DNA of 34,095 nucleotides from Acholeplasmatales bacterium (GTDB lineage: Bacteria; Bacillota_I; Bacilli_A; Acholeplasmatales; Anaeroplasmataceae), in the NCBI GenBank assembly GCA_016280975.1, contig JAEEHU010000072.1, forward strand, positions 1-34,095, in the 5' to 3' direction. Under the pieces are notes generated by a model that saw only the letters and a program-made list of their open reading frames with translations, did not search any database and had not been told where the DNA came from. This document shows, in pieces, positions 3,271 through 33,802 of this stretch. The stretch's first letter is position 1. Every line of letters starts with the position of its first letter. The translations under genes were made by a program, and so were the position numbers.

Positions 3271-5928
3271 ATGGATGAAAGTAAATTACTAGAAAGTCTA
3301 CTATTCTTAAATAATAGTATCACTTTTGTCGTTAATTCAAAAACAAAGACAATTGAATCTGTATATAACGGCAAAAATAAAAAAGACGAAAATATTACAT
3401 ACAAAGAATTTGCACATAATTTCTGTGTATTCTTTGGACTTAATGATGCGGCTGAGGCTAAACTAATAAGATTTTTAGATAATTTATTACCTTCTTCTGC
3501 ACCATTTCAAATACCAGTTGACTATAGATTAGATGATGGTTCTCCTATTAAACTTATTTATAATGGATTTATGTTTGAAAAAAACATGGTATTATTTACT
3601 GTTAAGAAAGATATAGAAGACCATACAAATGATATGGATCAGCTTACAAAGCTATATACTAAGAATTACATTGTAAATAAAATTAAAAAAGCAATTGATG
3701 CTAATCAAAAATTCGCTCTTATGGTTATAGATATTGATAACTTCAAATTATTTAATGATACATATGGACATCTATATGGAGATATTATCCTAGTTGAAAC
3801 TGCAAGTGCCTTAAAGAAATTCGCAGATAAACGAGGCTATGTTGCAAGAATCGGTGGCGATGAATTCTTAGTAATGCTTTATACTGATGCGACATACGAT
3901 ACAACACATAAGGAATGTACTGCCTTAAGAGAAACTATAAGGAATTTTGCAAAGCACAATATAAAACAAGAAAACATAACAGTAACTGTAGGATGTTCTA
4001 CTTATCCTAACGACGGACTTGATTATGATTTACTATTTAAAAAAGCCGATAAAGCATTATATAGAGGAAAAAGAAAAGGTAGAAACTGCTTTATTATCTA
4101 TAGCGAAGAAAAATGTGGCGAAATCACCGATGAAATGATTTCAGATGTTAAAGCCATTGATAGATTATTTAATACATCTAATAACTATAGTATCATTACA
4201 GGTGTACTTGAAATATTAAGTAGAGATAACAACCTAGATAAAAATATTAATGACTCTTTATCATTAATAGGAAATTATTTTATTCTTGATAGAATATCAG
4301 TTTTAGCACTTGATCCAAATACAGATGCGCCTTACAAGCAATATTCATGGTTCCAGTCTTCTTCTTTTGAAATACCGATAGGATTTAATCAGGAGGGAAA
4401 GGACTTATTTAGAAAAGCACTCGATCAAACAGGTATGGTTAAAATAGTTCAAACAGGTGCGAATAAAAATAGCCCTATTTATGATTTACTTGTGAGTGAA
4501 GGCACTACTGCAACTCTTGCCTTTGAGTTAAGATATGAAAATAAAGTTATGGGCTTAATCAAATATGATATGTGCTCAATAAATAAATTCTGGCAGCCTA
4601 ATGATGTTGCATCGCTTAACTTAATTGGTAAGCTATTTGCAATTAAGCTTAAGAAACAGCATGATGAGGAATTAATTAAAAAGGATTTATATTATGATAA
4701 GCTAACTGATATCTATAACTATACTAAATGGCGTGATGATGTTTCTGAATATGTATTTAAGAGTAAAAAAGATTATTCTATCTTAAGTGTTGATATAAGT
4801 GACTTTAAAACAATAAATGAAGAATTCGGAACTAAAGCAGGAGATAAGTGCTTAAAGGCCATAGCTGAATCATTTAAAAAGATTGATTATGTTAAGGCTA
4901 TATTCTGTAGATTCACAGGAGATAAGTTCTTAGTTTATTTAGAAACTACTAACTGTGACATTATAGAAAAAGCCTATAATGATATTGAATCTAGCGTATT
5001 AAAGCTTCCATTTGGAAATAAGGTATTCTTAAAATGTGGTATTTATATCAACATAGATAAAACAACACTTAATACTTCTGTTGATTATGCAAATGAAGCT
5101 AAAAAAATAAAGAACTCTCAGGTTCATTTATATTACTATACAGAAGAAAACTTCTTAGAACAAAAGAGACGTTCTCAAATTGAGCTTCATCAGGAGGATG
5201 CTCTTAAGAATGGAGAATTCCTTCTATACCTACAACCAAAGGTTAATACATCTATAAATAAGGTTGTAGGAGCTGAGGCATTAACAAGATGGAACTTTAA
5301 TAATGAAACTATATTAAGTCCATTCTTATTTATTTCCATATTTGAAGAAAATGGATTTATATCTAAGCTTGACTATGCTGTATTTGAAAATGTATGTAAA
5401 TTCCAGCGTGAATGCATAGATAACAATTTAACACTTATTCCTATTTCAGTTAATGTATCAAGATATCAAAAGGATTTTGATGATTATATTAATAACATTG
5501 AGACAATAAGACAAAAATATGATATTGATCCATCACTTATTGAAATAGAAATAACTGAGGGTATGTATATTGATAATGTAGATGTAATATCTGACTTTAT
5601 TAATAAATTACATAAAATCGGTTATACTATCTCAATGGATGATTTTGGTTCAGGATTCTCTAACTTAGCATCTTTAGCTAAATTAAACTTTGATATTATA
5701 AAGCTTGATAAAAACTTCTGTTCAAATAGAAAAAACGAAAAGGAAGAAATTATCCTAAAATCAATTATGAAATTATCTAAGGATTTAGATATCAAGGTAT
5801 TATGTGAGGGTGTTGAAACAAACGAATATTGCGAATTCTTAAAAACAATCGGATGCTTCCTAATTCAGGGTTATCTATTTGATAAGCCAATTCCAAAGGA
5901 TGAATTTAAGGATAAATACCTAAAGTAA
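3271..5928 (+). CDS. Cyclic-di-GMP signalling protein, GGDEF - GAF-like - degenerate GGDEF - EAL
   Basis: This 885-aa protein has no membrane segment. Domains in order: a PAS-like N-terminal region (1-115); a first GGDEF domain with intact RIGGDEF (193-199), so diguanylate cyclase activity is possible; a GAF-like sensor region (about 300-465); a second GGDEF-type domain whose signature has decayed to FTGDKF (548-553); and an EAL phosphodiesterase domain (about 635-885). The EAL domain keeps the usual catalytic set: EALTRW (669-674), NVSRYQ, EITEG (E760), MDDFGSG (D790, D791), KLDK and CEGVE (E846). The product-inhibition RxxD motif before GGDEF is absent. Synthesis and hydrolysis may therefore be combined and switched by the sensor regions. 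The gene at 28259-30922 is a full-length paralogue. The ATG follows AAAGGTG. It stands alone and ends at a bidirectional terminator. Confidence 0.9.
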   Translation: MDESKLLESLLFLNNSITFVVNSKTKTIESVYNGKNKKDENITYKEFAHNFCVFFGLNDAAEAKLIRFLDNLLPSSAPFQIPVDYRLDDGSPIKLIYNGFMFEKNMVLFTVKKDIEDHTNDMDQLTKLYTKNYIVNKIKKAIDANQKFALMVIDIDNFKLFNDTYGHLYGDIILVETASALKKFADKRGYVARIGGDEFLVMLYTDATYDTTHKECTALRETIRNFAKHNIKQENITVTVGCSTYPNDGLDYDLLFKKADKALYRGKRKGRNCFIIYSEEKCGEITDEMISDVKAIDRLFNTSNNYSIITGVLEILSRDNNLDKNINDSLSLIGNYFILDRISVLALDPNTDAPYKQYSWFQSSSFEIPIGFNQEGKDLFRKALDQTGMVKIVQTGANKNSPIYDLLVSEGTTATLAFELRYENKVMGLIKYDMCSINKFWQPNDVASLNLIGKLFAIKLKKQHDEELIKKDLYYDKLTDIYNYTKWRDDVSEYVFKSKKDYSILSVDISDFKTINEEFGTKAGDKCLKAIAESFKKIDYVKAIFCRFTGDKFLVYLETTNCDIIEKAYNDIESSVLKLPFGNKVFLKCGIYINIDKTTLNTSVDYANEAKKIKNSQVHLYYYTEENFLEQKRRSQIELHQEDALKNGEFLLYLQPKVNTSINKVVGAEALTRWNFNNETILSPFLFISIFEENGFISKLDYAVFENVCKFQRECIDNNLTLIPISVNVSRYQKDFDDYINNIETIRQKYDIDPSLIEIEITEGMYIDNVDVISDFINKLHKIGYTISMDDFGSGFSNLASLAKLNFDIIKLDKNFCSNRKNEKEEIILKSIMKLSKDLDIKVLCEGVETNEYCEFLKTIGCFLIQGYLFDKPIPKDEFKDKYLK

Positions 5929-9689: not shown

Positions 9690-11450
9690 ATGAGTAATTT
9701 ATCTAATTTTCAAGAACTAATAGCTTCTAAAGGTTATACATGCTATATAGTTCCAACTTCTGATTCACATAATAGTGAATATGTAAGTGATTATTTTAAA
9801 GCAAGAGAGTATTTATCAGGCTTCACTGGTTCTGCTGGTATCTTAATAGTATTTGAAGACAGTGCATACCTATGGACTGATGGTAGATACTTTATTCAAG
9901 CAGAGCATCAACTAGAAGGCTCTGGTATAACATTAATGAAGGCAGGAACAAAGGACACTCCAAGGATTTCTACTTTCTTACATGACAAACTAAAGGACAA
10001 TGATGTAGTAGGATTTGATGGTACACTTCTTACAGCAAGCTATGTTGAAGGCCTACTTCAAACAATCGATAAAAAGATCACATTAAAGACTGCTGAGGAC
10101 TTAGTTAATAGCGTTTGGGAAAAGCGTCCAGCTTTACCATTTAGTCTTCTTTATAAGCTTGATACATTCTTCTCTGGTAAATCAACTAAGGATAAGATTA
10201 GTGATTTAAGAGCTAAGATGAAGGAATGTAATACAAATACACATATTCTATCATCATTAACTGATATAGCTTGGCTATTCAATTTAAGAGGTAATGACAT
10301 TGAATACACTCCAGTATTCTTATCTTATGCAGTTATAACATTAGATCAAGTATATCTATTTGTCGATCAAGCTAAATTAAATATTGAGGTTCAAAAGTAC
10401 CTTGATGAAAATGATATAACAGTTAAGGATTATAATGACTTCTACGATTTCATTAATACACTTAAGAATAAGCAAATCCTAATTGATAAGGATGAAATCA
10501 ATTATAAAACTTATTCTATTATCAATAGTAATAACAATAAGCTTATTAATGAACCAAATCCTACAAGCTATAGTAAAGCAATTAAAAATGAAACTGAAAT
10601 CAAGAATATTAAAGATGCACATTTAAAGGATGCTCGTGCAATGGTTAGATTCATGAACTGGCTATATAAGGAGCTTGATAGCGCAATTCCTCTAAATGAG
10701 CTTGCAATCCAAGATAAGCTTGATGGATTTAGAGCAGCTGAGGAAGGGTTCGTTGAATTATCATTCTCAACTATTTGTGGATATAAAGAGCACGGTGCAA
10801 TAGTTCACTACTCTTCTTCTAAAGAGACAAATATTGAGGTTACTGGAAATGGTCTATTATTAATTGATAGTGGTGGACATTATTTAGAGGGTACAACAGA
10901 TATCACAAGAACTTTCGCAATTGGTAAGATAAATGACCAAGCTAAAACAGCATTTACTAATGTATTAAAATCACATATAGCACTTGCTGAGGCAGTATTC
11001 CCTAGTGGAATTACTCATAAGGAGCTTGATACAATATCAAGAATGCCACTATGGAAAACATATCAAGACTATCGTCACGGTACTGGTCATGGTGTTGGAT
11101 ATCTTCTTTCAGTTCATGAAGGACCAAATACATCAAGAGCTACAATGCCAATAACAGTTGGTACAATTACAACTGATGAACCAGGCTTATATATTGAAAA
11201 TAAGTTTGGCGTAAGAATTGAAAGTGAATTATTATGTGTTAAGAAGGAATCAACTGAATATGGTGATTTCCTAGGATTTGAAAATCTAACATATGTTCCA
11301 ATTGACATTAATGCAATTAAGCCTTCACTTTTAACAAAGTTTGAGAAGGAATGGTTAAATAATTATCATAAAAATATTTATGAAAAATTATCACCAATGC
11401 TAAATAAGGAAGAACAGGAATTCCTAAAGAAAATAACTGAAGCAATATAA
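9690..11450 (+). CDS. pepP: Aminopeptidase P (Xaa-Pro aminopeptidase, M24B family)
   Basis: This enzyme removes an N-terminal residue that precedes proline, probably in the cytoplasm since no signal peptide is seen. The protein is 586 aa, matching the long three-domain aminopeptidase P type. Two creatinase-like N-terminal domains (about 1-300, with YLSGFTGSAG near the start) precede the pita-bread catalytic domain. Metal ligands are visible: LLIDSGGHYLEGTTDITRTF gives the two Asp, HGTGHGVGYLLSVHEGP gives the His, and TTDEPGLYIE and GVRIESE give the two Glu. I chose ATG 9690 because the upstream GTG at 9675 lies inside the GGGAGG ribosome-binding site. It converges on mscS through a shared terminator. 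Confidence 0.92.
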   Translation: MSNLSNFQELIASKGYTCYIVPTSDSHNSEYVSDYFKAREYLSGFTGSAGILIVFEDSAYLWTDGRYFIQAEHQLEGSGITLMKAGTKDTPRISTFLHDKLKDNDVVGFDGTLLTASYVEGLLQTIDKKITLKTAEDLVNSVWEKRPALPFSLLYKLDTFFSGKSTKDKISDLRAKMKECNTNTHILSSLTDIAWLFNLRGNDIEYTPVFLSYAVITLDQVYLFVDQAKLNIEVQKYLDENDITVKDYNDFYDFINTLKNKQILIDKDEINYKTYSIINSNNNKLINEPNPTSYSKAIKNETEIKNIKDAHLKDARAMVRFMNWLYKELDSAIPLNELAIQDKLDGFRAAEEGFVELSFSTICGYKEHGAIVHYSSSKETNIEVTGNGLLLIDSGGHYLEGTTDITRTFAIGKINDQAKTAFTNVLKSHIALAEAVFPSGITHKELDTISRMPLWKTYQDYRHGTGHGVGYLLSVHEGPNTSRATMPITVGTITTDEPGLYIENKFGVRIESELLCVKKESTEYGDFLGFENLTYVPIDINAIKPSLLTKFEKEWLNNYHKNIYEKLSPMLNKEEQEFLKKITEAI

Positions 11451-11476
11451 AAAAGAGACTCGCGTCTCTTTTTTTT
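11449..11476. terminator. Bidirectional terminator between pepP and the mscS-like gene
   Basis: Stem AAAAAAGAGAC (11449-11459) / GTCTCTTTTTT (11464-11474) with loop TCGC is flanked by A and T runs, so it works in both directions. It overlaps the pepP stop codon and abuts the stop of the channel gene. Confidence 0.9.
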
Positions 11477-12518
11477 AATTATTGTTTTCTTGACCATCCA
11501 TAGTCTTTGATAGTTCTTTTTGTTCATCAACGAAATCTTGAGCCTCTTGCTTCATCTTCTTAGTAGTATGATACTCTGTAGGCTTGTAGTTTTGAACAAC
11601 AACTTGATTGAATGATAAATCGATACCAGCTTCTGTAAATACCATACGATATTCTCTTAATAAGTCTCTTTGAACTTGATATCTATCCTCTTCTAAACAT
11701 TTAGCTACAATCTTAACAGCAACGTTTGAATCACCATAGCCTGAAACACCTTTATAGAAAGGTCCTTCTACTATTGCAGGAATCTTCTCACGGAACATAT
11801 CAAAATGATCCTTTAATAATCCTTCAATTACAACGATAGGTACATCATATGGGAATTCACAGTCTACTATAGCTAAAGATAATTCTCTTGACATGTTAAT
11901 TACATTAGAAATATCTGAGTTATTGATAATCTTAATATTACCAGCTGCGTCTAAAATTCTAGTTGAACGAATACCAATTTCTGTAACAGTTCCTCTAAAA
12001 TCACCAACTGTAATAATTTCACCAACCTCATATTCATTTTCAAATACAATGAACATACCTGCAACGATATCAGCAATTAAGCTTTGGCATCCTAAACCTA
12101 TAACTAAAGTTAGGATACCAACTGATGCGAAAATTGCCATTGCATTAACACCTAATGCTTGAAGTACAAATATAATAATTGCGATTGCGCATGCATATTT
12201 TACTAATCCATCTAATAATGTAACTACTGTTTTAGTTCTATTTGATTTTACCATTACCTTGTGGAATAGCATTCTAATTAACTTACATATAGCATAGATT
12301 ACAACAACCCAAACTATACACTTGATTAAAACAGGTAAGTGGTCCATGAATGCCGCACCGGCTTCATATGTGTTCCATACATTAGCTTGGACCCAAGCGC
12401 CAACTGGTGTTTCAGGAGCAGCCATTTCAATAATTAAAAATGTTAAGAATGTTACTAGGACTACGCCTATAATAACGAGTTCTACAATTGTAAATGCCTT
12501 TTTGTTTTTTGTTTTCAT
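11475..12518 (-). CDS. MscS-family mechanosensitive ion channel
   Basis: A 347-aa small-conductance mechanosensitive channel homologue. Three hydrophobic regions come first: residues ~10-30, ~60-85 and ~100-125. The pore helix and hinge follow, with GILTLVIGLGCQSLIADIVAG and then FENEYEVGEIITVGDFRGTV, the characteristic MscS beta-domain start, and ILDAAGNIKIINNSDISN. The C-terminal ~50 residues are hydrophilic. Such channels open under membrane tension and release solutes after hypo-osmotic shock. GGAGGAAAAGAAAAG precedes the ATG. It starts 17 nt after the giant surface-protein gene and is very likely in the same operon, which hints that the giant protein works under membrane or envelope stress (inference). 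Confidence 0.92.
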   Translation of the reverse strand: MKTKNKKAFTIVELVIIGVVLVTFLTFLIIEMAAPETPVGAWVQANVWNTYEAGAAFMDHLPVLIKCIVWVVVIYAICKLIRMLFHKVMVKSNRTKTVVTLLDGLVKYACAIAIIIFVLQALGVNAMAIFASVGILTLVIGLGCQSLIADIVAGMFIVFENEYEVGEIITVGDFRGTVTEIGIRSTRILDAAGNIKIINNSDISNVINMSRELSLAIVDCEFPYDVPIVVIEGLLKDHFDMFREKIPAIVEGPFYKGVSGYGDSNVAVKIVAKCLEEDRYQVQRDLLREYRMVFTEAGIDLSFNQVVVQNYKPTEYHTTKKMKQEAQDFVDEQKELSKTMDGQENNN

Positions 12519-12535
12519 CTTTTCTTTTCCTCCAA

Positions 12536-15500
12536 TTAAATTGAATATGTTACTTCTGTGTAACCAATTTCTGAGTTACCTTGTTCTATTACTAAATTAC
12601 CACGAGGGTCATTATAGTTAGATGCTGTAATAGTGATCTTATAAATACCACTACCTTGAACCTCAACTAATACAGTATTTGATGAAACTGATTGACTTGC
12701 TGTACTAGATAAATCAATTGTGCCTGTCTTAAATGATAGAAGTTTAGATCCATCTAAGTAGTCAGGATTGATATAATTTTTATCAATGTAAATTATATTA
12801 CTATATGTACCAGCGCTTGAATCATACTTCCAATCAGTATCTTCAATTGGGCTATTAGCTCTACCAAGGTTATATGATTCATATTTTATATAATTACCAT
12901 CTTGGACATTATAAACTGTTACGTACACTTCATAATTTGTATTCTTTACATTACTAAATGATACAGATGAAGATGTTGAGTAATCAGATTCATATAACTT
13001 CTCATGAGTATAACCATTGTAACTTAATTTCTCATGAAGCTCGACCTTGTAAGCATAATTTGGATTTGCTGTTGAATCAAAGCCTGTGTTAATTGTTAGA
13101 TTAATAGTATCATCAGCATTCTTAGTAGCTGAACTATTAATTGCGCTTCTATCTAAACTAAAGCTATTACTTTCTGGAATTGTATCAAGTCTTACTTCAG
13201 TGAATTCAATACTCTTTGTAACTATGGCTTCACCATTTGCAAAGATATCAAATTCAAGTGTACACTTGCTTACTCCATGAACATCATAGTTATAGTATTC
13301 ATAACTTTGAACCTCATGTAGGAATGTTATATATATTCCTCCAATATCTGCACTTTGTTCCATATATGCCGAATTGTTATCTGGTCTAATAGACTGAAGA
13401 TCTGATTCATCCTTTAGACTACCCGTTGAGGTATCTATGATATTTTCACCGGCTGTATGAACACTTAACGTGTAATCTCCACGATATGGTAGGTTAGTGA
13501 AGCATCCGATATCTGTTGTTAATGAACCTGCTAAATAATACATAGCATTATAAGTCCATGGAGATTCAAGTCCAGATTCAGGAGCCTCGTTACCATCCGC
13601 ATCATAATACTTTCCATCTTCTTGATTTAAGATATAAACTATATCATTATCTTCATCATATTTAGTTGCAGACATATTACATGAGAAGCTACCATATGAT
13701 GAATTTCCTAGTATCGAATATACTGCGTAATCTAGATTAACTTCACTTTCTATTGAATGAACCTTTGTGAATGTGTAGCTAACATTCATGCCATTTAGTG
13801 TATAGCGAATATCAAATTCAAGTGAAGCTAAATTTGATTCTAGTTGATAAATATCTATATTACATGTTCCATCCGCATTGAAGCTTTGTGGATCTTGAGA
13901 GCCATAAACTACTCTTGAATTAGCTGTATCAAGCTCTGCACCCTCTGGAAGAATAAGCTCTGTTGGAAGTGTGATATGATCATCATTATCGTTATAAACG
14001 AAATCACTAATATTAGCATCAAGTGCTATTTCATTAGTTAAGAATATTACATCTCCACCATATGAATAATGCTTATATACTGAAACAATTAGCTTAGTTG
14101 TTTCATATTGCTTATTAAATTCAATAGTTTTTGAGCCTTGATCTCCAGTATGAGTTAATGTTGTAACACTTCCGCTTGAAGATGGCTTATAGTATTGTTC
14201 AACTTTTAAGTAATAGTCATCAAATGTATCATCTGATGTTACATCAATAGTCATAGTATCGCCACTAGTTGTAACTGACATATTCTTAACTATATCAGAT
14301 TGCTCAAACTCATATGTCTTATATTCAAAGACATTATAATGGATTTGATAGCTTGATATACTTAAAGTACTGCTCATAATTTCTTGGGTCTTAACTTCCA
14401 TGATTTTAACTGTAACTTTAGTATATCCTGGATTTAAACTTAAGCGGATTTGACCATTTGCGTATGAAGATTCTTTAATTAGCTCGTCACCAAAGTATGC
14501 TTGAGCTATTAATGTATCTCTACTATCTGTAGCTGTATAATCAAGCTTAATCTCAATTACATTTGCGTAAGTTGGATCTTCTTCTGTCTCATCTGTAATT
14601 GAGTCAACATCATACTTACCTGTGAATTCACCGATTGTAACTGTTGTAGAACCTGATAGATCCTCGTAATTAACAATATCATTTGAGCCATTAGCTTCAA
14701 TATATGCTGCAATGAAGTCATTTGGTCCACCACTGAATGATACTGTCGCAGTCGTTGGAGCGTTTGTTAACGAGAAGAATGTGGCCTCAACCTCAATTAC
14801 ATCTCCTCTTACAGCAACGACATAGCTTGTTGAGTTATCACTTGCTGTTACTGTATATCCATATGCTCCATCACCAAGTGATGTCATGGTTTCATCATAT
14901 TCCTTATATAATACTTCTAATTCCTTACCAGCATAGTTAATAACTATTGGTGTTGAATTATCAAAATTATCAGGATTTAAATCAAAGAAGATTGCAGCAG
15001 TATAGCTATCTCTTCCTTCTTCAATACCAATTGTTGCATTTGCTAAATCAAGTGTAGTTGATACGTTAGTTTCTGCACATTTGTAATGATCATCTGTTGT
15101 AGAGTAACCATCAATAGTTATTGCGTTTGTATCATAATAAACATTATCCTTCTTATAGAATACTTGATATTTAAATGTATAATCTAAATCTTCCATATTT
15201 AAAAGCTTAATAATTACATCTTGAGTGTATTCAGTTTCACGATATATTGTTTTATTACCTTGCTTGTAACTATATAATAGCTTTCCGTAGTGATTTGAAG
15301 ATAACTCTTGGAACCTAGTATTGAAATAATAATTTACTGTACCATCAGAATTTTCTGTCTTAATATATTCAACCTTTTTATCTGAATTACCTGCTCTAAA
15401 GTTTTGAAGATTAGAATCACCAGCACCATCAGTTACTGTTCTATCAACAGTAATGGTATATTCTTCATTATCAAATCCTTGTGATGTAACCTTATATTTT

Positions 15501-18500
15501 AATTCAGAAACTATAACATCATATGTACTTTGATCATATATTTCATTTGTCTTTACAACATAATAGCCATTTTCAAATGTTTCACTACCTGGAGCTTCTC
15601 TTTCCTCCATTTTAACAAATACATAGCTATCTTCTTCCTTGTCATATGCTACTTCTATATCTAGATTTGCATTAACAAGCTTATCATTTAAATATGTGTC
15701 AAACTTAATATTTACTGTGTTATAGAAGCTATTATAATGTGTTGCATAATAAGATACTTCATATCTTGCACCTAAGTCTACTGAATCACCAATTATTCTA
15801 TGATAAATGTTTATACCATTTGATGAATAATTAACCTCAACTGAAGGTATTAAAGTATTAGTTGTTAATTCAGCTATTGTGATATTACCAGTTAATGTGC
15901 TGAATTCATATTGCTCCTCTAAGCCCATAAATGTAATTACGTTTGTAATATCTTGACCTGTTAATAATTCTGCATCACTAGGAAGTGTAATTTCATAAGG
16001 TATTACTACTTCACCATCACTATTTACATCGGCCTCACCTAATGTAATAGATGTAGTAAATGGTACTTCAATTGAATCGAATACTACCTTATTACCATAG
16101 TAATCATTTTGATATACCTCAACTATTACCTTAACTGGCTCATCATGTAAGCTAAATTGAGTTTCAGTTGAGCCTTGAGAAATATCTTGTACCTCTTCAG
16201 ATGAAACATTACCATTTGATTCATAATAATAAGTTATACCCATATGATAATCATCAAATGAATCAAGTATTTCACCATTAACATTGATGCTTACATCACA
16301 GACATCCTCTAAATCAATATTATCTTCCATTAAATTTACGCCTGTAATAATTGAAGCCTTTTCAAATTCAATAGTATCAAGTAATGTTTCATTATATGTT
16401 AATGCAAAAATTTCTGCATTTTGATATTCATTTATTGTGTTAACATATTGATTTTTAGTTTCAATAATCTTAACTTCAACAGTTGAATATACTGGATCAA
16501 TATCAATAACTGCTGGTCCGTCATCTACGTATGAATCACTTCCGATTACATTACCATTTGCATAAACAACAACCATTAATCTATCTCTTTCGTCAGTTTT
16601 AATGAAATTGATTCCGTTAACAAATATTCTTGCTTGAGCTAATTGATTTGACTTTTCATGTGTTACTTCTACATCCTCTAAATTATAGATACCTGTATAA
16701 GCACCAATTGTCTTAGTAATATCACCTTGAAGTGTTTCTTTACCAATCATATCATCGAATTGATCAATGAAGTCACTAGCAACTGCACTATATTCAAGTT
16801 GGGCAGTGTATAAAATATCTCCAGATATTGCAGATACCTTCTTATATGCTTCAACTCTAATAATATCATCCTCAATCTTAGCGATATATCCATATGTTCC
16901 ATCTTGTGATTCATATGTCTCTGGAGAATCAGCTGTAGTTGGAAGTGCGATATTATATTCAGTTCCATCATAAGTTAATGTTACTGCTTTTGATGAATCA
17001 ATATTATTTTGAAGAAGTTCAAAGTAAATAACCATTCTTTCTTCAGCATCTTGTGTTGTAAGCTTAGCAATAGATGCTGTATTATCCTCTAAGCCATTAA
17101 GCTTAATTAATTCTGCTGGATATAGCTTACCTTGTGCACCTATTAGGTCTGCATCATAGTAAGTGTCACCATTCTTATAGAATATTTGATAGCTAAATGA
17201 ATAATCCTTATCATTTAAGCTTAAAATGCTATATGTCTTTGTATTAAAGAAATCAGTATGGAAATACTTAGTCTTATTATCTTCAGTATAGCTATAAGTA
17301 ATTCTTCCATAATAATCATCACCTAAGTTAGCTGCGTTAGTATCGAAATAGAAATTAGCTGTACCATCAGAATTTAACGTCTTAGCATATTTAATATATC
17401 TAGTGTCATTATCTGTAAATCCTGCACTATAACCACCAGTTAAGCTTTCAGTTGTAATAGTACTATCCAATAGGATATTATGCTCTTCTGTATCGAAGCC
17501 GTTACTTGAAATCTTATAAGAAATACCTTTTTCATCACCAATTGATATTGTCTTAACAATATAGTAGTTTTGGTAAATGCCAGTTGAAAGCTCACTTATA
17601 TTTCTTTCTTCAATATTTACATATTCATAGCCTGAATCTGTTGACTCCTTAACCATTGGTTGAAGATTAATGTTAACAGTCTTGCCGTCTATCTTAGTAT
17701 CAAACTTAATGTTGATATAGTTATAGAAGCTATTAAAATGTGTTGCATAATATGAAACCTCATATTCAGCACCTAAATTAATATCTTCAATTTCAAAGCC
17801 TGTTCTAATTTCTACGCCATCTAATACATAAGTAACCTCAAATGTTGGAGTAAGTAGATTACTATATAGGTTTTCTAATCTTACCTCACCCTCAAGGTTT
17901 TCACTAGTTGAGGACTCGTAAGCACCATTAAAGCCTACAAATACTTCATTTATAGTTGCGTTATCTGGAATAGTTATTTCATATGGAACAGTAACGATTC
18001 CGTTTCCATCAACTGATATTTCACCACAAGTAAATGTTTCTTGCATTGGTAAAATAGTATATTCTCTTACTAAAATGTCACCTGAGTAAATTGAAATATC
18101 AAATGATTTAATATCCTTTAATGTTACACTATCATCATTTGAATATGGAACACTTTCATTTTGATAGCTTCCAGTAAATGATTCATTTAAAACATTCTTA
18201 GTTCCATCAAGGTTATTTTGAGTAATATTTACATTGAATTCCTTAGCTGAATCATCCTTATAATATTCAAATTGAACAAAGTAATTATCATCAAGCATTA
18301 CGAACTTAACATTCTTGAATGGATCTTGATGCTCAATTCCATGTGAGTATGTCTTAATTAATTCGTATTCGTCACTACCCTTTAGCTTTCCATAAACAGA
18401 AACATAAACTGTAGTCCCATTTGCTGTTGTCTCAAATGTCTTTGTATAAGTCTTTGATGTAAGAACTTGCTCATCAACTACTCTATCATTAACCTTTTCA

Positions 18501-20116
18501 ACTACCATATAATCAGTACACTTATCAAATACATCGTTAATTTCTAGATCATACTTTAGCTTATATTTATCTAAACTTAAATCAAAGTCTTCAGTGAAGT
18601 CTAAAGATGTATAAATAGGTGCATCTTTTCTTGCTTCTTCCATTGGATATGAATAAATCTTTTTAGACTCATATTTTTTCAAAGCCTTATTAGTAGTTTT
18701 AGTTCCTGTATAGTATACATCAATACCACTTACATTTCCTGGAACTAGAAGTGTTGCTATACTACCATCATCATTTGGCTTTTCATATTTATTATATGTA
18801 TATGTTGCAAGCGGAGTCTTATTAGGCTTAGTTGTATTCTCACTATCAGTATCTGCGTTATTTGATACTTCTGTTTCATATACATCGATAATATATCCAT
18901 CTCTTGGGTCAGTTGATGAGAATCCTGTTTGAATTGATAAATTAAAGCCTTGATCTGAATATTCAATAGATGGTGTTTGAACTGAATATACGGCATCATA
19001 CTTCTCATTATCTGCAACGAAATCATCTGGATATTTAGCACTATAGTTATATTCACCAATTACGATTTCTTTGTCACAATATGTTGTGTACGCAATTGCT
19101 TCAATTACATCTAAGTCAACAAGGCCTCTAATGACACCTCTAAAGAAATTATCCTCATCAATAGTTTCAGGAACTCCCTCTACAGGCTCTCCTCCTGCTG
19201 TAATTTCAACTCTATGATTAGATCCTGTTAAATAGTGATCTGAAATATAAATATCATAATTAATATCATATGATAGTGATTCATAGTCAAATACAGGATT
19301 AAAATCAAATACAGCTTGTGGTTCAGGAAGCTGGCTTGTAACGACTACATTTGATAAGAATCGTGTTTCAATTAAATTTTCAGCCGAACCAACTATCTCA
19401 ACATTATATGGTCTATAAGGAGTAAGTCCTGTAACAATTTGCTTTTGTATACCAGGCTCAGTTATTGGGTATTCCTCATAGAACGTATTATTATAAATCT
19501 TAATTTTATAGTTAACTCCTGGAGCTAACTCTTCAACATCTATTTCATATTTAATGTAGTCTGTTCCTACATCATAAATTGCAGATAAAATTTGTGGTTC
19601 TGGTGCCATAATTGTACCACCAGCAAGTGCAACAACACCGACTGTAGCAAAGGCTACAACAGTTGCACCACCTGCAACAGATGCAGCTGATGCGCCAGCA
19701 CTAGCTCCTGCTGAGGCTCCAGCTGATGCGCCTGATGCGGATGCACTACCTGATGCAGATGCACTGCTTGAGGCCGATGCGCTACTTGATGCGGCTGTTG
19801 CGTCTGCTCCTACATCACCTGATAGGCTTGATGCATCTTGAACATTACCTGCATTTATATCAGGAGATTGTTGTCCATCTGCCGTATTTCTAAATCTATC
19901 ATCAATCTGTTCCTCGATTTTTCGAGGTTCAGTATCTGCTGTTAATGGCTTTTTATCCATGCCATAAATATCTTGGCTTGTTTCTGGGACATTAACTACT
20001 TCAGGAGAAGGATTTACTGTCTCTTTTGGAGCGTAGTATTCGATTGCTTTAATATCTTTGAACTCAGGAATAGCTTTATTCAATTCATGACCAAAGTTAT
20101 TGTATTCATCATTCAT
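12536..20116 (-). CDS. Giant membrane-anchored repeat surface protein (~2526 aa)
   Basis: I do not recognise a named family. Starting from the ATG at 20116, which follows AAAGGAGGAG, the protein is ~2526 aa; an upstream in-frame ATG would put that ribosome-binding site inside the gene. Residues 1-106 are hydrophilic without a signal peptide. Residues 107-147 are almost pure Ser/Ala/Gly. One hydrophobic segment, about 148-170 (VAFATVGVVALAGG), is the only membrane anchor. Everything after it is probably extracellular: first fibronectin III-like strands (e.g. GLTPYRPYNVEIVG), then two ~660-680-residue tandem modules, a partial third, and a C-terminal beta-rich end (EVQGSGIYKITITASNYND). No LPXTG sorting signal or other C-terminal anchor is present. 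It is Asp/Tyr/Thr-rich, as adhesins often are. It is first in an operon with the MscS-type channel and divergent from the PadR cassette. Role as adhesin or envelope scaffold is inference. Confidence 0.8.
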   Translation of the reverse strand: MNDEYNNFGHELNKAIPEFKDIKAIEYYAPKETVNPSPEVVNVPETSQDIYGMDKKPLTADTEPRKIEEQIDDRFRNTADGQQSPDINAGNVQDASSLSGDVGADATAASSSASASSSASASGSASASGASAGASAGASAGASAASVAGGATVVAFATVGVVALAGGTIMAPEPQILSAIYDVGTDYIKYEIDVEELAPGVNYKIKIYNNTFYEEYPITEPGIQKQIVTGLTPYRPYNVEIVGSAENLIETRFLSNVVVTSQLPEPQAVFDFNPVFDYESLSYDINYDIYISDHYLTGSNHRVEITAGGEPVEGVPETIDEDNFFRGVIRGLVDLDVIEAIAYTTYCDKEIVIGEYNYSAKYPDDFVADNEKYDAVYSVQTPSIEYSDQGFNLSIQTGFSSTDPRDGYIIDVYETEVSNNADTDSENTTKPNKTPLATYTYNKYEKPNDDGSIATLLVPGNVSGIDVYYTGTKTTNKALKKYESKKIYSYPMEEARKDAPIYTSLDFTEDFDLSLDKYKLKYDLEINDVFDKCTDYMVVEKVNDRVVDEQVLTSKTYTKTFETTANGTTVYVSVYGKLKGSDEYELIKTYSHGIEHQDPFKNVKFVMLDDNYFVQFEYYKDDSAKEFNVNITQNNLDGTKNVLNESFTGSYQNESVPYSNDDSVTLKDIKSFDISIYSGDILVREYTILPMQETFTCGEISVDGNGIVTVPYEITIPDNATINEVFVGFNGAYESSTSENLEGEVRLENLYSNLLTPTFEVTYVLDGVEIRTGFEIEDINLGAEYEVSYYATHFNSFYNYINIKFDTKIDGKTVNINLQPMVKESTDSGYEYVNIEERNISELSTGIYQNYYIVKTISIGDEKGISYKISSNGFDTEEHNILLDSTITTESLTGGYSAGFTDNDTRYIKYAKTLNSDGTANFYFDTNAANLGDDYYGRITYSYTEDNKTKYFHTDFFNTKTYSILSLNDKDYSFSYQIFYKNGDTYYDADLIGAQGKLYPAELIKLNGLEDNTASIAKLTTQDAEERMVIYFELLQNNIDSSKAVTLTYDGTEYNIALPTTADSPETYESQDGTYGYIAKIEDDIIRVEAYKKVSAISGDILYTAQLEYSAVASDFIDQFDDMIGKETLQGDITKTIGAYTGIYNLEDVEVTHEKSNQLAQARIFVNGINFIKTDERDRLMVVVYANGNVIGSDSYVDDGPAVIDIDPVYSTVEVKIIETKNQYVNTINEYQNAEIFALTYNETLLDTIEFEKASIITGVNLMEDNIDLEDVCDVSINVNGEILDSFDDYHMGITYYYESNGNVSSEEVQDISQGSTETQFSLHDEPVKVIVEVYQNDYYGNKVVFDSIEVPFTTSITLGEADVNSDGEVVIPYEITLPSDAELLTGQDITNVITFMGLEEQYEFSTLTGNITIAELTTNTLIPSVEVNYSSNGINIYHRIIGDSVDLGARYEVSYYATHYNSFYNTVNIKFDTYLNDKLVNANLDIEVAYDKEEDSYVFVKMEEREAPGSETFENGYYVVKTNEIYDQSTYDVIVSELKYKVTSQGFDNEEYTITVDRTVTDGAGDSNLQNFRAGNSDKKVEYIKTENSDGTVNYYFNTRFQELSSNHYGKLLYSYKQGNKTIYRETEYTQDVIIKLLNMEDLDYTFKYQVFYKKDNVYYDTNAITIDGYSTTDDHYKCAETNVSTTLDLANATIGIEEGRDSYTAAIFFDLNPDNFDNSTPIVINYAGKELEVLYKEYDETMTSLGDGAYGYTVTASDNSTSYVVAVRGDVIEVEATFFSLTNAPTTATVSFSGGPNDFIAAYIEANGSNDIVNYEDLSGSTTVTIGEFTGKYDVDSITDETEEDPTYANVIEIKLDYTATDSRDTLIAQAYFGDELIKESSYANGQIRLSLNPGYTKVTVKIMEVKTQEIMSSTLSISSYQIHYNVFEYKTYEFEQSDIVKNMSVTTSGDTMTIDVTSDDTFDDYYLKVEQYYKPSSSGSVTTLTHTGDQGSKTIEFNKQYETTKLIVSVYKHYSYGGDVIFLTNEIALDANISDFVYNDNDDHITLPTELILPEGAELDTANSRVVYGSQDPQSFNADGTCNIDIYQLESNLASLEFDIRYTLNGMNVSYTFTKVHSIESEVNLDYAVYSILGNSSYGSFSCNMSATKYDEDNDIVYILNQEDGKYYDADGNEAPESGLESPWTYNAMYYLAGSLTTDIGCFTNLPYRGDYTLSVHTAGENIIDTSTGSLKDESDLQSIRPDNNSAYMEQSADIGGIYITFLHEVQSYEYYNYDVHGVSKCTLEFDIFANGEAIVTKSIEFTEVRLDTIPESNSFSLDRSAINSSATKNADDTINLTINTGFDSTANPNYAYKVELHEKLSYNGYTHEKLYESDYSTSSSVSFSNVKNTNYEVYVTVYNVQDGNYIKYESYNLGRANSPIEDTDWKYDSSAGTYSNIIYIDKNYINPDYLDGSKLLSFKTGTIDLSSTASQSVSSNTVLVEVQGSGIYKITITASNYNDPRGNLVIEQGNSEIGYTEVTYSI
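13680..14023 (-). repeat. Partial third copy of the surface-protein module
   Basis: After the second module the protein reads DHITLPTELILP, then VNLDYAVYSILGNSSYGSF. In position and pattern this echoes VTVPYEITIP and LGAEYEVSYYATHFNSFYN of the complete copies. It is much more diverged, and I could not follow the similarity beyond about 115-150 residues. Confidence 0.5.
14024..16060 (-). repeat. Second ~679-aa tandem module of the giant surface protein
   Basis: Starts at FTTSITLGEADVNSDGEV. Shared landmarks with the first module are VVIPYEITLP, LGARYEVSYYATHYNSFYN, VNIKFDT, SDGTVNYYFNT, YTFKYQVFYKKDNVYYD and FDDYYLKVEQYY, all in the same order. The DNA around 15697-15777 is also close to 17697-17776, which suggests a duplication that is not very old or is kept similar by recombination. 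Confidence 0.8.
16061..18034 (-). repeat. First ~658-aa tandem module of the giant surface protein
   Basis: Starts at FTCGEISVDGNGIVTVPYE. Landmarks in order are VTVPYEITIP, LGAEYEVSYYATHFNSFYN, INIKFDT, SDGTANFYFDT, YSFSYQIFYKNGDTYYD and FDDYHMGITYYY. Each has a counterpart about 2.0 kb further along the gene in the second module. Confidence 0.8.
19670..19805 (-). repeat. Ser/Ala/Gly low-complexity coding repeat
   Basis: The DNA is a degenerate short-period repeat (units like GATGCG and GATGCAGATGCA on the plus strand), locally richer in G+C than its surroundings. It encodes SASASSSASASGSASASG followed by SAG triplets, just before the membrane anchor of the giant protein. Such a tract could change length by slippage. 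Confidence 0.7.
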
Positions 20117-20151
20117 AAATACTTCTCCTCCTTTTTTCCAAAAACCATTTA

Positions 20152-20180
20152 ATTTTATCACATTTTCTGATTATAATCAA
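20152..20180 (-). promoter_or_regulatory. Candidate promoter of the giant surface protein - mscS operon
   Basis: On the minus strand -35 TTGATT (20175-20180) and -10 TAAAAT (20152-20157) are 17 bp apart, placing the transcript start about 30 nt before the start codon. A second TATAAT at 20171-20176 is less well placed. Confidence 0.55.
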
Positions 20181-20275: not shown

Positions 20276-20590
20276 ATGAATGTACAATTAAAAAGAGGAA
20301 TTACAGACGTATGTGTTTTAGCTGTACTTAAAGAGGAAGCATCATACGGTTATAAAATAATTTCCGATTTAGAAAACATCATGAGCTTAAGCGAATCAAC
20401 ATTATATCCAATACTAAAAAGATTGGAAGCACAAAAGTGCTTAACTACTTTTTCTAAAGATTACAACGGAAGATTAAGAAAATATTATGAAATAACGGAT
20501 ATCGGAAAATCTAAAATTATTGAGTTTATCGAAGAATGGAAGGAAATCGAAAAGGTTGGAAGATTCATAAATTCAAGGGGAGGAATTTAA
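20276..20590 (+). CDS. PadR-family transcriptional regulator
   Basis: A 104-aa protein consisting of a PadR winged-helix domain: N-terminal helix with LKRGITDVCVLAVLKEEASYGYKI, the typical LSESTLYPILKRLE recognition region, and a wing with GRLRKYYEITDIGK. This is the short PadR subfamily 2, which has a small C-terminal dimerisation helix and often represses its own operon. It is first in a three-gene operon. The DUF1700 ATG comes one base after its stop, with GGGGAGGA inside the end of this gene. Its ligand is unknown. Confidence 0.93.
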   Translation: MNVQLKRGITDVCVLAVLKEEASYGYKIISDLENIMSLSESTLYPILKRLEAQKCLTTFSKDYNGRLRKYYEITDIGKSKIIEFIEEWKEIEKVGRFINSRGGI

Positions 20591-20591
20591 G

Positions 20592-21209
20592 ATGACTAGA
20601 GAAGATTTTATTAATAAGTTAAATAGAGGCCTAAGAGATTATCCAGATAAGAATGATATAGTTGCATATTATTATGAACTAATATCAGATAAGATGGATA
20701 ATGGATTATCTGAAGCTGAGGCTGTTAAATCATTAGGAAACGTTGATACGATTATTAATGATATCCTTAATAATCAGGGAGACAACGTAACAATTAATGA
20801 TGAGGAAAAAGCTTCAAGGTTTGTAGAAAAAAGTGAGAATGTTAATTATAAGGATGGTAGTGAGACTAAGAGTGATAAAAAAAGTAATACTTCTTCTAAG
20901 CACTTAGGCTTTGTTTCAGGCTTAATATACTTCTTATTCTCATTTTCAATTGTAATATTATGTATAGTTGCAATCGCAATTATAGTAGCTGCCGTAATTG
21001 TTAACCTTGCAGGAGGCGCAATGATAGCATTTGGTGGCTATGAATTTCAAGAAGGTATTGGAGTTGGATTTACAATGATAGGAATTGGAATATTCACACT
21101 TGGATTTGGATTCTTATTCTTATATTTTTCAAATCTATTAAGACGCTATATCTTTAAGAATAAAAAAGAATGGCGTAAAAAATTTAGAAGTTCATTGGTA
21201 GGTGAGTAA
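20592..21209 (+). CDS. DUF1700 (HAAS domain) membrane protein
   Basis: A 205-aa protein. The N-terminal ~65 residues form the HAAS-type helical domain: MTREDFINKLNRGL, then DIVAYYYELISDKMDNGLSE and AEAVKSLGNVDTIINDIL. A polar Ser/Lys/Asp linker follows, and then two or three hydrophobic helices from about residue 108 to 185 (LIYFLFSFSIVILCIVAIAI; IGVGFTMIGIGIFTLGFGFL). A basic tail ends the protein. DUF1700 proteins commonly follow a PadR gene and precede a DUF4097 gene. They are thought to act in envelope signalling, but the mechanism is not established. The next gene starts one base after its stop. Confidence 0.88.
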   Translation: MTREDFINKLNRGLRDYPDKNDIVAYYYELISDKMDNGLSEAEAVKSLGNVDTIINDILNNQGDNVTINDEEKASRFVEKSENVNYKDGSETKSDKKSNTSSKHLGFVSGLIYFLFSFSIVILCIVAIAIIVAAVIVNLAGGAMIAFGGYEFQEGIGVGFTMIGIGIFTLGFGFLFLYFSNLLRRYIFKNKKEWRKKFRSSLVGE

Positions 21210-21210
21210 T

Positions 21211-21984
21211 ATGAAGAAAAAGACTAGTCTACTTGTTATTTGGGGAATTATCCTATGTGTTATAGGCTTAGTTGTAGTAGGTGCCTCTGTTACTTTCGCT
21301 GTCAAAGACTACGAAGCCTTCACAAATTACACTGATAAAGAAATAGTTTTAGATGAAGATATTAACTATGATTTTGAATTTGCAACATCTGATGTTGTAA
21401 TTCATAAGACTACTGAGGCTAAAACTAAGGTTACTGCTAAATTAGTTAAGGATACTGATTTAACATTAGAAGGAAATAAGATTGCTATTTCTAAAAAGAA
21501 CATTTGGGGAGTATTATCAATGTACTTCAAAAATAAAATCGATATCTATTTAGGAACAGATATCGAAAATAACGATATTAAGATTTTAATAAATGCATCT
21601 ACATTAAAAAGTGATACCGATATCACTTTAAATAAGTTCAATTTTGAAGCTAACGCATCATCAGGTGACCTTAAGAATATAATTGCTGATTCAGTTAATA
21701 TGAAAATAAATGCTGGATCATTTGAAATTAAGGATTCAACAATTGATAAACTAAATATAGATGTAAATGCAGGAAATGTTAAAATCAAAACTGCTGTTAA
21801 CACATTCACATTTATAGCAAATGCTGCTTCTATTGATTCATATATTAAAGGAGCTAAGGCTGATTATAAGCGTGCAGTTGATCTTGCTGCCGCATCATCA
21901 AACCTAGGCTCAAGCTTTGAAGGAACTAAAACTATTTCTGGTAAGGTTACTGCAGGAAGCGCAGATTTCGAATTTGAATCTTAA
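21211..21984 (+). CDS. DUF4097 family membrane-anchored beta-helix protein
   Basis: A 257-aa protein with one N-terminal hydrophobic anchor (LLVIWGIILCVIGLVVVGAS). A beta-rich domain of short repeated strands follows, with the DUF4097 pattern of alternating SG/NAG turns (ANASSGDLKNIIADS, INAGSFEIKDSTIDKL, VNAGNVKIKTAV, TAGSADFEFES). The fold is expected to be a right-handed beta helix on the outer face of the membrane. I chose ATG 21211, not the GTG at 21202, because AGGTGAG sits just before that ATG. It is last in the PadR operon and ends at a strong terminator. Its target in the envelope is unknown. Confidence 0.85.
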   Translation: MKKKTSLLVIWGIILCVIGLVVVGASVTFAVKDYEAFTNYTDKEIVLDEDINYDFEFATSDVVIHKTTEAKTKVTAKLVKDTDLTLEGNKIAISKKNIWGVLSMYFKNKIDIYLGTDIENNDIKILINASTLKSDTDITLNKFNFEANASSGDLKNIIADSVNMKINAGSFEIKDSTIDKLNIDVNAGNVKIKTAVNTFTFIANAASIDSYIKGAKADYKRAVDLAAASSNLGSSFEGTKTISGKVTAGSADFEFES

Positions 21985-21997
21985 AATATAACAATAT

Positions 21998-22037
21998 AAA
22001 AGTCCTAATGGATTATTATTCCACTAGGACTTTTTTT
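21998..22037. terminator. Terminator between the DUF4097 gene and the glycosyltransferase
   Basis: Stem GTCCTA-TGGA / TCCA-TAGGAC, with one mismatch and a 7-nt loop, is followed by seven T on the plus strand. The A run on the left gives a weaker T run for the convergent minus-strand gene. Confidence 0.85.
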
Positions 22038-23022
22038 ACATCTTTAACATTTCAGAATAGAAATCATCTAATGTCTTAGACATACTTGTTATATTATTTC
22101 TTTCCTTTAGCTCACTATATTCTATTTCAAATATCTTTTCTACCTTTTCTCTACCATAGATTATAAAGATATTTCTTTTTGTTGCTAAGTATTCCTTTAA
22201 TCTATTTAGGTTATACTCCTTCTTATCCTTTAATTCCTCATAATCAAATAAGTTTGAGTATAAAACAATATAAATACCTAAGGTAAAGCTAATTAAATAA
22301 TTGAATTTTAAATAGCTATTTTTAGATACTAAGAATTCATATGTATAAATAGGTGAATCAAAGAAATCATCAAATGTTTCTACTGTATAGCTATATTTTC
22401 TTTTAATTCTTGTTAAGCTTGTATCATTTTTCTTCCATCTATATGTTGTAAAATCTAAATATGTGATATTTTCAGGCTTAATAGTACCTAATATAGATGT
22501 TGTGAAAAATGAATCCTCTAGGTGTCTTACCTTCGGATGGAATCTAATTCCATTTTCAGATAAGAATTTTCTTTTATATACTTTACCATGCATCCATGGG
22601 AAGGTATCTTTTCCTTTTTTAATTAAAAGTGTATTTTTTTCTTCTGTTTCAAGTGCGATATTAGTAACTAAATAGTCAGGCTCCTTTTTTGATATAAAGT
22701 CAGTAATTATATATAAAGCCTTCTTATCAAATAATTCATCATCACTATCACAAAACATAATATAGTCTGATGATGTACTATCTATACCCTTTTGGCGAGC
22801 AAGACCAGGACCAGTATTTTTATCATTTCTAATATATGAAATATTTAAATTCTTAAAGCTCTTTAGAAAGTCTTCATCTAATAATACATCACTACAGTCA
22901 TTAACTATAGTAAGCTTAATATTATTAAAATCGACACGCTCTTGATTATTTATTGAATCAAGTAGTGGTTTAATATCCTCATTCTTTTCCTTATATTGTG
23001 GAATTATTATATCAAGTAACAT
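22036..23022 (-). CDS. Family 2 glycosyltransferase
   Basis: A 328-aa GT-A fold enzyme. It begins LLDIIIPQYKEKNEDIKPLL and continues with the nucleotide-binding strand TIVNDCSD. Next comes NTGPGLARQKGID, then the metal-binding DxD-type motif in YIMFCDSDDELF (about residues 90-101). HGKVYKRKFL lies before the acceptor region. The C-terminal half is rich in Tyr, Lys and Phe and has no clear membrane helix. Donor and acceptor cannot be read from sequence; cell-surface glycan or glycolipid synthesis is likely. Its ribosome-binding site AAAGGAG overlaps the end of the preA-like gene, and only 4 nt separate the two genes, so it is last in the kinase operon. Confidence 0.85.
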   Translation of the reverse strand: MLLDIIIPQYKEKNEDIKPLLDSINNQERVDFNNIKLTIVNDCSDVLLDEDFLKSFKNLNISYIRNDKNTGPGLARQKGIDSTSSDYIMFCDSDDELFDKKALYIITDFISKKEPDYLVTNIALETEEKNTLLIKKGKDTFPWMHGKVYKRKFLSENGIRFHPKVRHLEDSFFTTSILGTIKPENITYLDFTTYRWKKNDTSLTRIKRKYSYTVETFDDFFDSPIYTYEFLVSKNSYLKFNYLISFTLGIYIVLYSNLFDYEELKDKKEYNLNRLKEYLATKRNIFIIYGREKVEKIFEIEYSELKERNNITSMSKTLDDFYSEMLKM

Positions 23023-30922: not shown

Positions 30923-30969
30923 ACTATTTTCCCCACAATAACCAACTCTAATATATAACATCTAAAATA

Positions 30970-33749: not shown

Positions 33750-33802
33750 CTTGTAATCACACCATTCGTTTTTGATTATAAATAATAGCATACTATATAT
33801 GA

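Follow-up and report, generated by a model that had tools for sequence, protein, structure and literature searches.

A Giant Single-Pass Surface Protein with a Repeat-Built FN3/Ig-Like Ectodomain Adjoins an MscS-Type Channel in an Acholeplasmatales Bacterium

Introduction

The nearest architectural analogue of the protein described here is Gli349 of Mycoplasma mobile, which has 3183 aa, an N-terminal TM segment and 18 repeats of ~100 aa, and whose gene lies in the order gli123-gli349-gli521-gli42 (PMC7052211). Going by the published description, both are giant surface proteins with an N-terminal TM segment from bacteria that are, or in our case probably are, wall-less, but they differ in their gene neighbours, and a ~670-aa higher-order unit has not been reported for the Gli349 repeats. 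FN3/Ig-type bacterial adhesins and S-layer proteins also form extracellular beta-sandwich strings, and our protein differs from them in having no signal peptide or sortase anchor, in its N-terminal TM segment and in its constant MscS neighbour. Sortase-anchored Gram-positive adhesins have an LPXTG motif and a sortase in the genome, both of which are absent here.

Bacterial MscS is the textbook case of a channel gated by bilayer tension alone, and known members are described as directly gated in this way (PMC12940486). Some animal channels are known for force-from-filament gating, as with the ankyrin spring of NompC and the tip link of hair cells (PMC12940486, PMC10801851). These also place a long repeat-domain element on a mechanosensitive channel, but the proteins are unrelated to ours, the likeness is one of analogy only, and the link drawn here comes from genome context, not force measurements. 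MscS, YnaI, MscK and MSL10 share the MscS beta domain and pore helix with the channel at our locus. The literature searched describes no separate single-pass ectodomain paired with an MscS-type channel in bacteria and no member of the superfamily with such an operon-encoded partner, whereas the channel here adjoins one.

The locus lies in a stretch of 34,095 nucleotides (hereafter the window) from an Acholeplasmatales bacterium (contig JAEEHU010000072.1). We describe the gene pair and its co-directional apparent operon, its architecture and conservation, the predicted domain folds and the variation in size. We see the value of the work in the conserved pairing of ectodomain and MscS, whose single-pass partner reaches thousands of residues in certain species.

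Results and Discussion

Gene Organization and Membrane Anchor

The reading frame of the giant gene is open over the whole of positions 12536–20161, and its best start is the ATG at 20116, which has the Shine-Dalgarno sequence AAAAAGGAGGAG ahead of it (Table 1). The sole hydrophobic segment directly follows a Ser/Ala/Gly tract, with no second TM segment in the hydropathy profile, and a signal peptide and LPXTG were looked for and found absent, the C-terminus reading ...GYTEVTYSI. A sequence-only reading of this DNA had described a ~2526-aa protein with just these traits, and had proposed an inside-out anchored adhesin or scaffold. The K/R-rich cytoplasmic flanks of short relatives do point to an N-in anchor, and the role of the protein is likely mainly extracellular; the adhesin or scaffold part of the proposal now seems incomplete given the MscS neighbour. 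A motif, DE[FY]...E[FY]KxFxAxEYY...E, recurs in the tail when the tails of relatives are read by eye.

Searches with the giant protein returned nothing from Pfam (E<=1), NCBIfam (E<=0.01) or the sequences of the PDB, and none of the curated FN3, Ig or adhesin profiles in Pfam and NCBIfam was matched. A direct search of genome contigs with the protein found no relative; the family was reached by a genome-collection search and via channel homologues.

Table 1. Coordinates of the features at the locus, all within the window.
Feature	Position	Strand	Basis
Giant single-pass surface protein, 2526 aa	12536..20116	-	ORF, hydropathy, start-site inspection
N-terminal tail (putatively cytoplasmic), residues 1-147, Ser/Ala/Gly tract at its end	19676..20116	-	Comparison with tails of relatives
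Single transmembrane segment, residues ~147-172	19601..19678	-	Hydropathy
Membrane-proximal ectodomains, residues 173-612, predicted FN3/Ig-like	18281..19600	-	AF2, Foldseek
Supermodule copy 1, residues 613-1281, ~6-7 predicted beta-sandwich domains	16274..18280	-	Self-comparison, HHalign, AF2, Foldseek
Supermodule copy 2, residues 1282-1960	14237..16273	-	Self-comparison, HHalign
Supermodule copy 3, diverged and shortened, residues 1961-2526	12539..14236	-	Self-comparison, HHalign
GGAGG ribosome-binding site of the MscS gene, inside the 17-bp gap	12529..12533	-	Sequence inspection
MscS-family channel, 347 aa, extra N-terminal helix (TM0) and ~38-aa C-terminal extension	11475..12518	-	Pfam, NCBIfam, alignment
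Intrinsic-terminator-like hairpin closing the two-gene unit	11449..11474	-	Terminator scan
GT2 glycosyltransferase	22036..23022	-	Pfam, synteny

The gene 17 bp downstream, on the same strand, encodes a protein matched by PF00924 (MS_channel_2nd; E 3e-16, 59.7 bits over a cut-off of 20.2) and by NCBIfam MscS models at scores under their equivalog cut-offs. Its MscS beta domain and TM3 pore-helix motif (GLGxQSLIADIxAG in the alignment of the window's MscS group) place it by sequence in the MscS superfamily, and it is the only MscS of its own genome at E<=1e-20. No terminator was found between the two genes, which apparently share one transcription unit.

Repeat Architecture and Predicted Fold

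Self-comparison of the giant protein gave diagonals at offsets of 662–691 residues, with 40-residue ungapped scores of 157, 122, 77, 68 and 63 against a maximum of 41–55 in five shuffles, so that the strongest stand well clear of the shuffled range. Profile-profile comparison with HHalign matched residues 613–1285, 1282–1960 and 1961–2196 almost continuously (probability up to 100), and further matched 1578–1668 to 2322–2417. The ~670-aa unit is thus present in about 2.6 copies, two full and a shortened, diverged third, in keeping with the tandem modules of ~660–680 aa first suggested from the sequence. The unit joins fall at ~16273 and ~14236, about 210 bp from the boundaries near 16060 and 14024 that had been proposed; tandem repeats have no fixed phase. 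A 236-aa internal duplication was also found by profile-profile comparison within the membrane-proximal region.

The AF2 models of residues 613–1290 (pLDDT 81.6) and 125–625 (pLDDT 82.2) are both all-beta. Foldseek against the PDB matched the supermodule model to Ig/FN3 strings and the membrane-proximal model best to fibronectin FN4-7 and FN7-10, with E down to 1.8e-9 and prob 1.00; whole-chain TM-scores were low, as is expected because multi-domain chains are flexible. On these models the protein appears to be a chain of ~100-aa FN3/Ig-like beta-sandwich domains, and from its length the ectodomain would contain roughly 25 immunoglobulin-like domains. The very long module of the sequence-only reading is therefore real as a repeat, but not as one ~670-aa domain: the models predict a higher-order repeat, a run of ~6–7 ordinary FN3/Ig-like domains.

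Large strings of this kind are typical of adhesins, and the Foldseek matches include a bacterial ice adhesin (4p99) and an S-layer protein (7ptp). These fit our main alternative, which we consider rather unlikely: the protein would act on its own, as an adhesin, scaffold or surface-layer component of a cell without a wall, and its co-transcription with an osmotic safety valve would have regulatory or historical causes, the two proteins not being physically linked. The general build also recalls the leg protein of a gliding machine, as Gli349 likewise combines an N-terminal TM segment with ~3000 aa of ~100-aa repeats (PMC7052211). Such a role seems very improbable here, as the constant neighbour is an MscS gene and not the gli123-gli349-gli521-gli42 set of M. 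mobile (PMC7052211), and there is no second giant surface gene within the window.

Conservation of the Gene Pair

Wherever a relative's contig includes the 3′ end of the giant gene, this channel comes next; in three other giant-bearing genomes (G004, G006 and G019) the contigs break off within the giant gene. Named relatives are MAGs from the rumen and gut that carry the labels Acholeplasmatales, Bacillales, Bacilli or Clostridia. We also chose orthologues of the window's channel (group A, >=56% identical) by the channel alone and then inspected the upstream DNA, and a large single-pass protein lay directly upstream at every locus with readable upstream DNA, with one exception, a second MscS copy in G024 (L075/L101). 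This unpartnered copy (L025:1095-2150) sits ~4 kb upstream of a partnered pair with a GT2 gene nearby, and is perhaps a remnant of a moved locus. Genomes of the same family without the giant protein are also without the group-A MscS.

The pair reaches other families and orders, where a TM0-type MscS is preceded by a single-pass protein mostly of 426–473 aa, and the gaps between the two genes are mostly −41 to +33 bp, some of them overlapping. Small partners of 284–306 aa were also seen upstream of divergent MscS genes (L077, L076, L079 and L173), and G010 has one such pair in addition to a giant one. Among the top-scoring MscS genes, whose subfamily carries the extra N-terminal helix, a partner of 289–3007 aa lies directly upstream of 57 of the 58 with a complete upstream gene, compared with 23 of 273 same-strand neighbours in the background and 0 of 13 MscS genes at the lowest scores, which are mostly canonical (Fisher p 6e-44, a statistic that ignores kinship and uses a profile built from partnered loci). 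The partnered MscS group together, separate from canonical MscS, in a clade with 99% support that also contains a few unpartnered sequences. Together with the joint absence of giant protein and group-A MscS, this pairing across families and orders argues for a functional partnership. It also speaks against a stand-alone adhesin, for which one would not expect the pairing to be kept across several orders even with a partner of only ~280–470 aa, canonical MscS genes of the same genomes to have no such neighbour, or the giant protein to be missing where this MscS is missing.

Other points count against the partnership. Conserved operons need not encode complexes, and the 390-bit cut that defines the top-scoring set comes from a profile of partnered loci and so favours partnered genes. 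Intermediate MscS (320–390 bits) are mixed, with 7/16 called partnered, the L082 call among them doubtful, and 9/16 unpartnered. A long partner tail accompanies a ~35-aa C-terminal channel extension in 62 of 64 pairs, a match that reflects one evolutionary change and is hence no independent evidence for the pair.

Two proteins of the wider family (L145:1902-5603 and L146:715-4269; 1185–1234 aa) carry a C-terminal MscS domain behind two large TM-flanked extracytoplasmic regions. The fused regions have no detectable sequence similarity to the partner, which speaks against reading these proteins as gene fusions of it, though large extracytoplasmic regions joined to an MscS chain would be in line with a partnership. 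By eye the regions resemble Cache sensors, with no Cache match in Pfam or the PDB, and the two may possibly be ligand-sensing MscS channels. They lend some weight to the alternative that the giant ectodomain is a receptor instead of a mechanical tether, so that binding of a molecule to it would gate or modulate the channel by chemical means. As a sub-case of the partnership we find this unlikely, since tandem duplication has repeatedly altered the length of this ~2350-aa chain, which makes it look like a spacer or an element for reach and not like a ligand pocket.

Size Variation among Relatives

Homologues with different module numbers, which the sequence-only reading had suggested looking for, were found, with zero to 2.6 copies of the supermodule. 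In L103 and L093 a ~206-aa stretch is repeated five or six times in its place, and other homologues duplicate stretches of ~103, ~192–214 or ~290–300 aa, so that repeats in related genes span 1, 2, 3 or ~7 domains. These differing stretches support the reading of the ~670-aa unit as a higher-order repeat. Within group A the giant protein ranges from 966 to 3007 aa, and at 2526 aa the protein in the window is among the longest members seen of the ectodomain-MscS pair. Among relatives it is mostly ~27–46% identical over aligned parts, compared with 61–85% for the adjoining channel, and certain tandem copies are 98–100% identical. This fast divergence and recent duplication would suit an outward-facing adhesin, and a diverging partner beside a conserved channel is equally expected of one, which counts against the partnership.

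Host Genome and Neighbourhood

Transpeptidase, SEDS and sortase genes were not found in the 99%-complete host genome (sortase PF04203 gave no match), and because these are missing the host is probably wall-less. The suggestion made from the sequence that the cell may lack sortase-type anchoring is thus well founded. The genome carries MscL in addition to the one MscS, and with MscL kept, the paired MscS could serve a different role. Across the two nearest families, 2 of 23 giant-bearing genomes and 8 of 18 without the giant protein have a transpeptidase (Fisher p 0.012). Independent pairs on an MnmG tree were too few for significance, and so a link between the pair and loss of the cell wall was not upheld after kinship control and remains a hint only. 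Within genus g1 (G007, G014, G016, G021, G005 and G020), some genomes have penicillin-binding transpeptidases and most have none, and wall loss there looks recent or repeated.

At least 8 relatives have a homologue of the GT2 glycosyltransferase gene immediately upstream of the giant gene, and in the window the GT2 gene is displaced by ~1.9 kb by a cluster divergent from the giant gene that encodes PadR-regulator, HAAS-domain and DUF4097 proteins (20276–21984). The enzyme may modify the ectodomain, and its position upstream in several relatives would also fit an adhesin. Elsewhere in the window are two long GGDEF-EAL proteins of 885 and 900 aa (3271–5928 and 28259–30961), in a host that is apparently wall-less, and an 894-aa Lipase_3-domain protein with a multi-helix membrane C-terminal half (31107–33791).

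Proposed Role of the Pair

The near-constant MscS pairing, absent from the sequence-only reading, changes the most likely role of the giant protein, as it suggests that the filament serves the channel as a handle or sensor outside the cell. We favour, at a probability of roughly 55%, that the giant protein is a dedicated extracellular partner of the adjoining MscS-type channel, and on the strength of the genomic linkage the two probably form a physical complex. With an N-in single-pass anchor, the membrane helix and the conserved tail would sit next to the channel, while the long, length-variable FN3/Ig-like chain would project outward. Through this chain, attachment outside the cell (to a surface, a fibre, a neighbour or a surface layer) or the binding of a ligand could influence whether the channel opens or closes, or where it is localised. 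The giant protein would then be a tether or sensory ectodomain, with attachment or load outside modulating gating. That force or ligand does control gating through it is possible, at somewhat below even odds. More tentative is the idea of a bacterial force-from-filament channel. Gating of the MscS-type channel would then be controlled via a giant FN3/Ig filament outside the cell, with a length that evolution can tune, and such channels would be widespread among wall-less bacteria and their relatives.

The deeply conserved, unannotated pair makes it directly testable whether bacteria gate or position mechanosensitive channels via an external handle, and it offers a candidate function for a large unnamed surface-protein family of wall-less rumen and gut bacteria.
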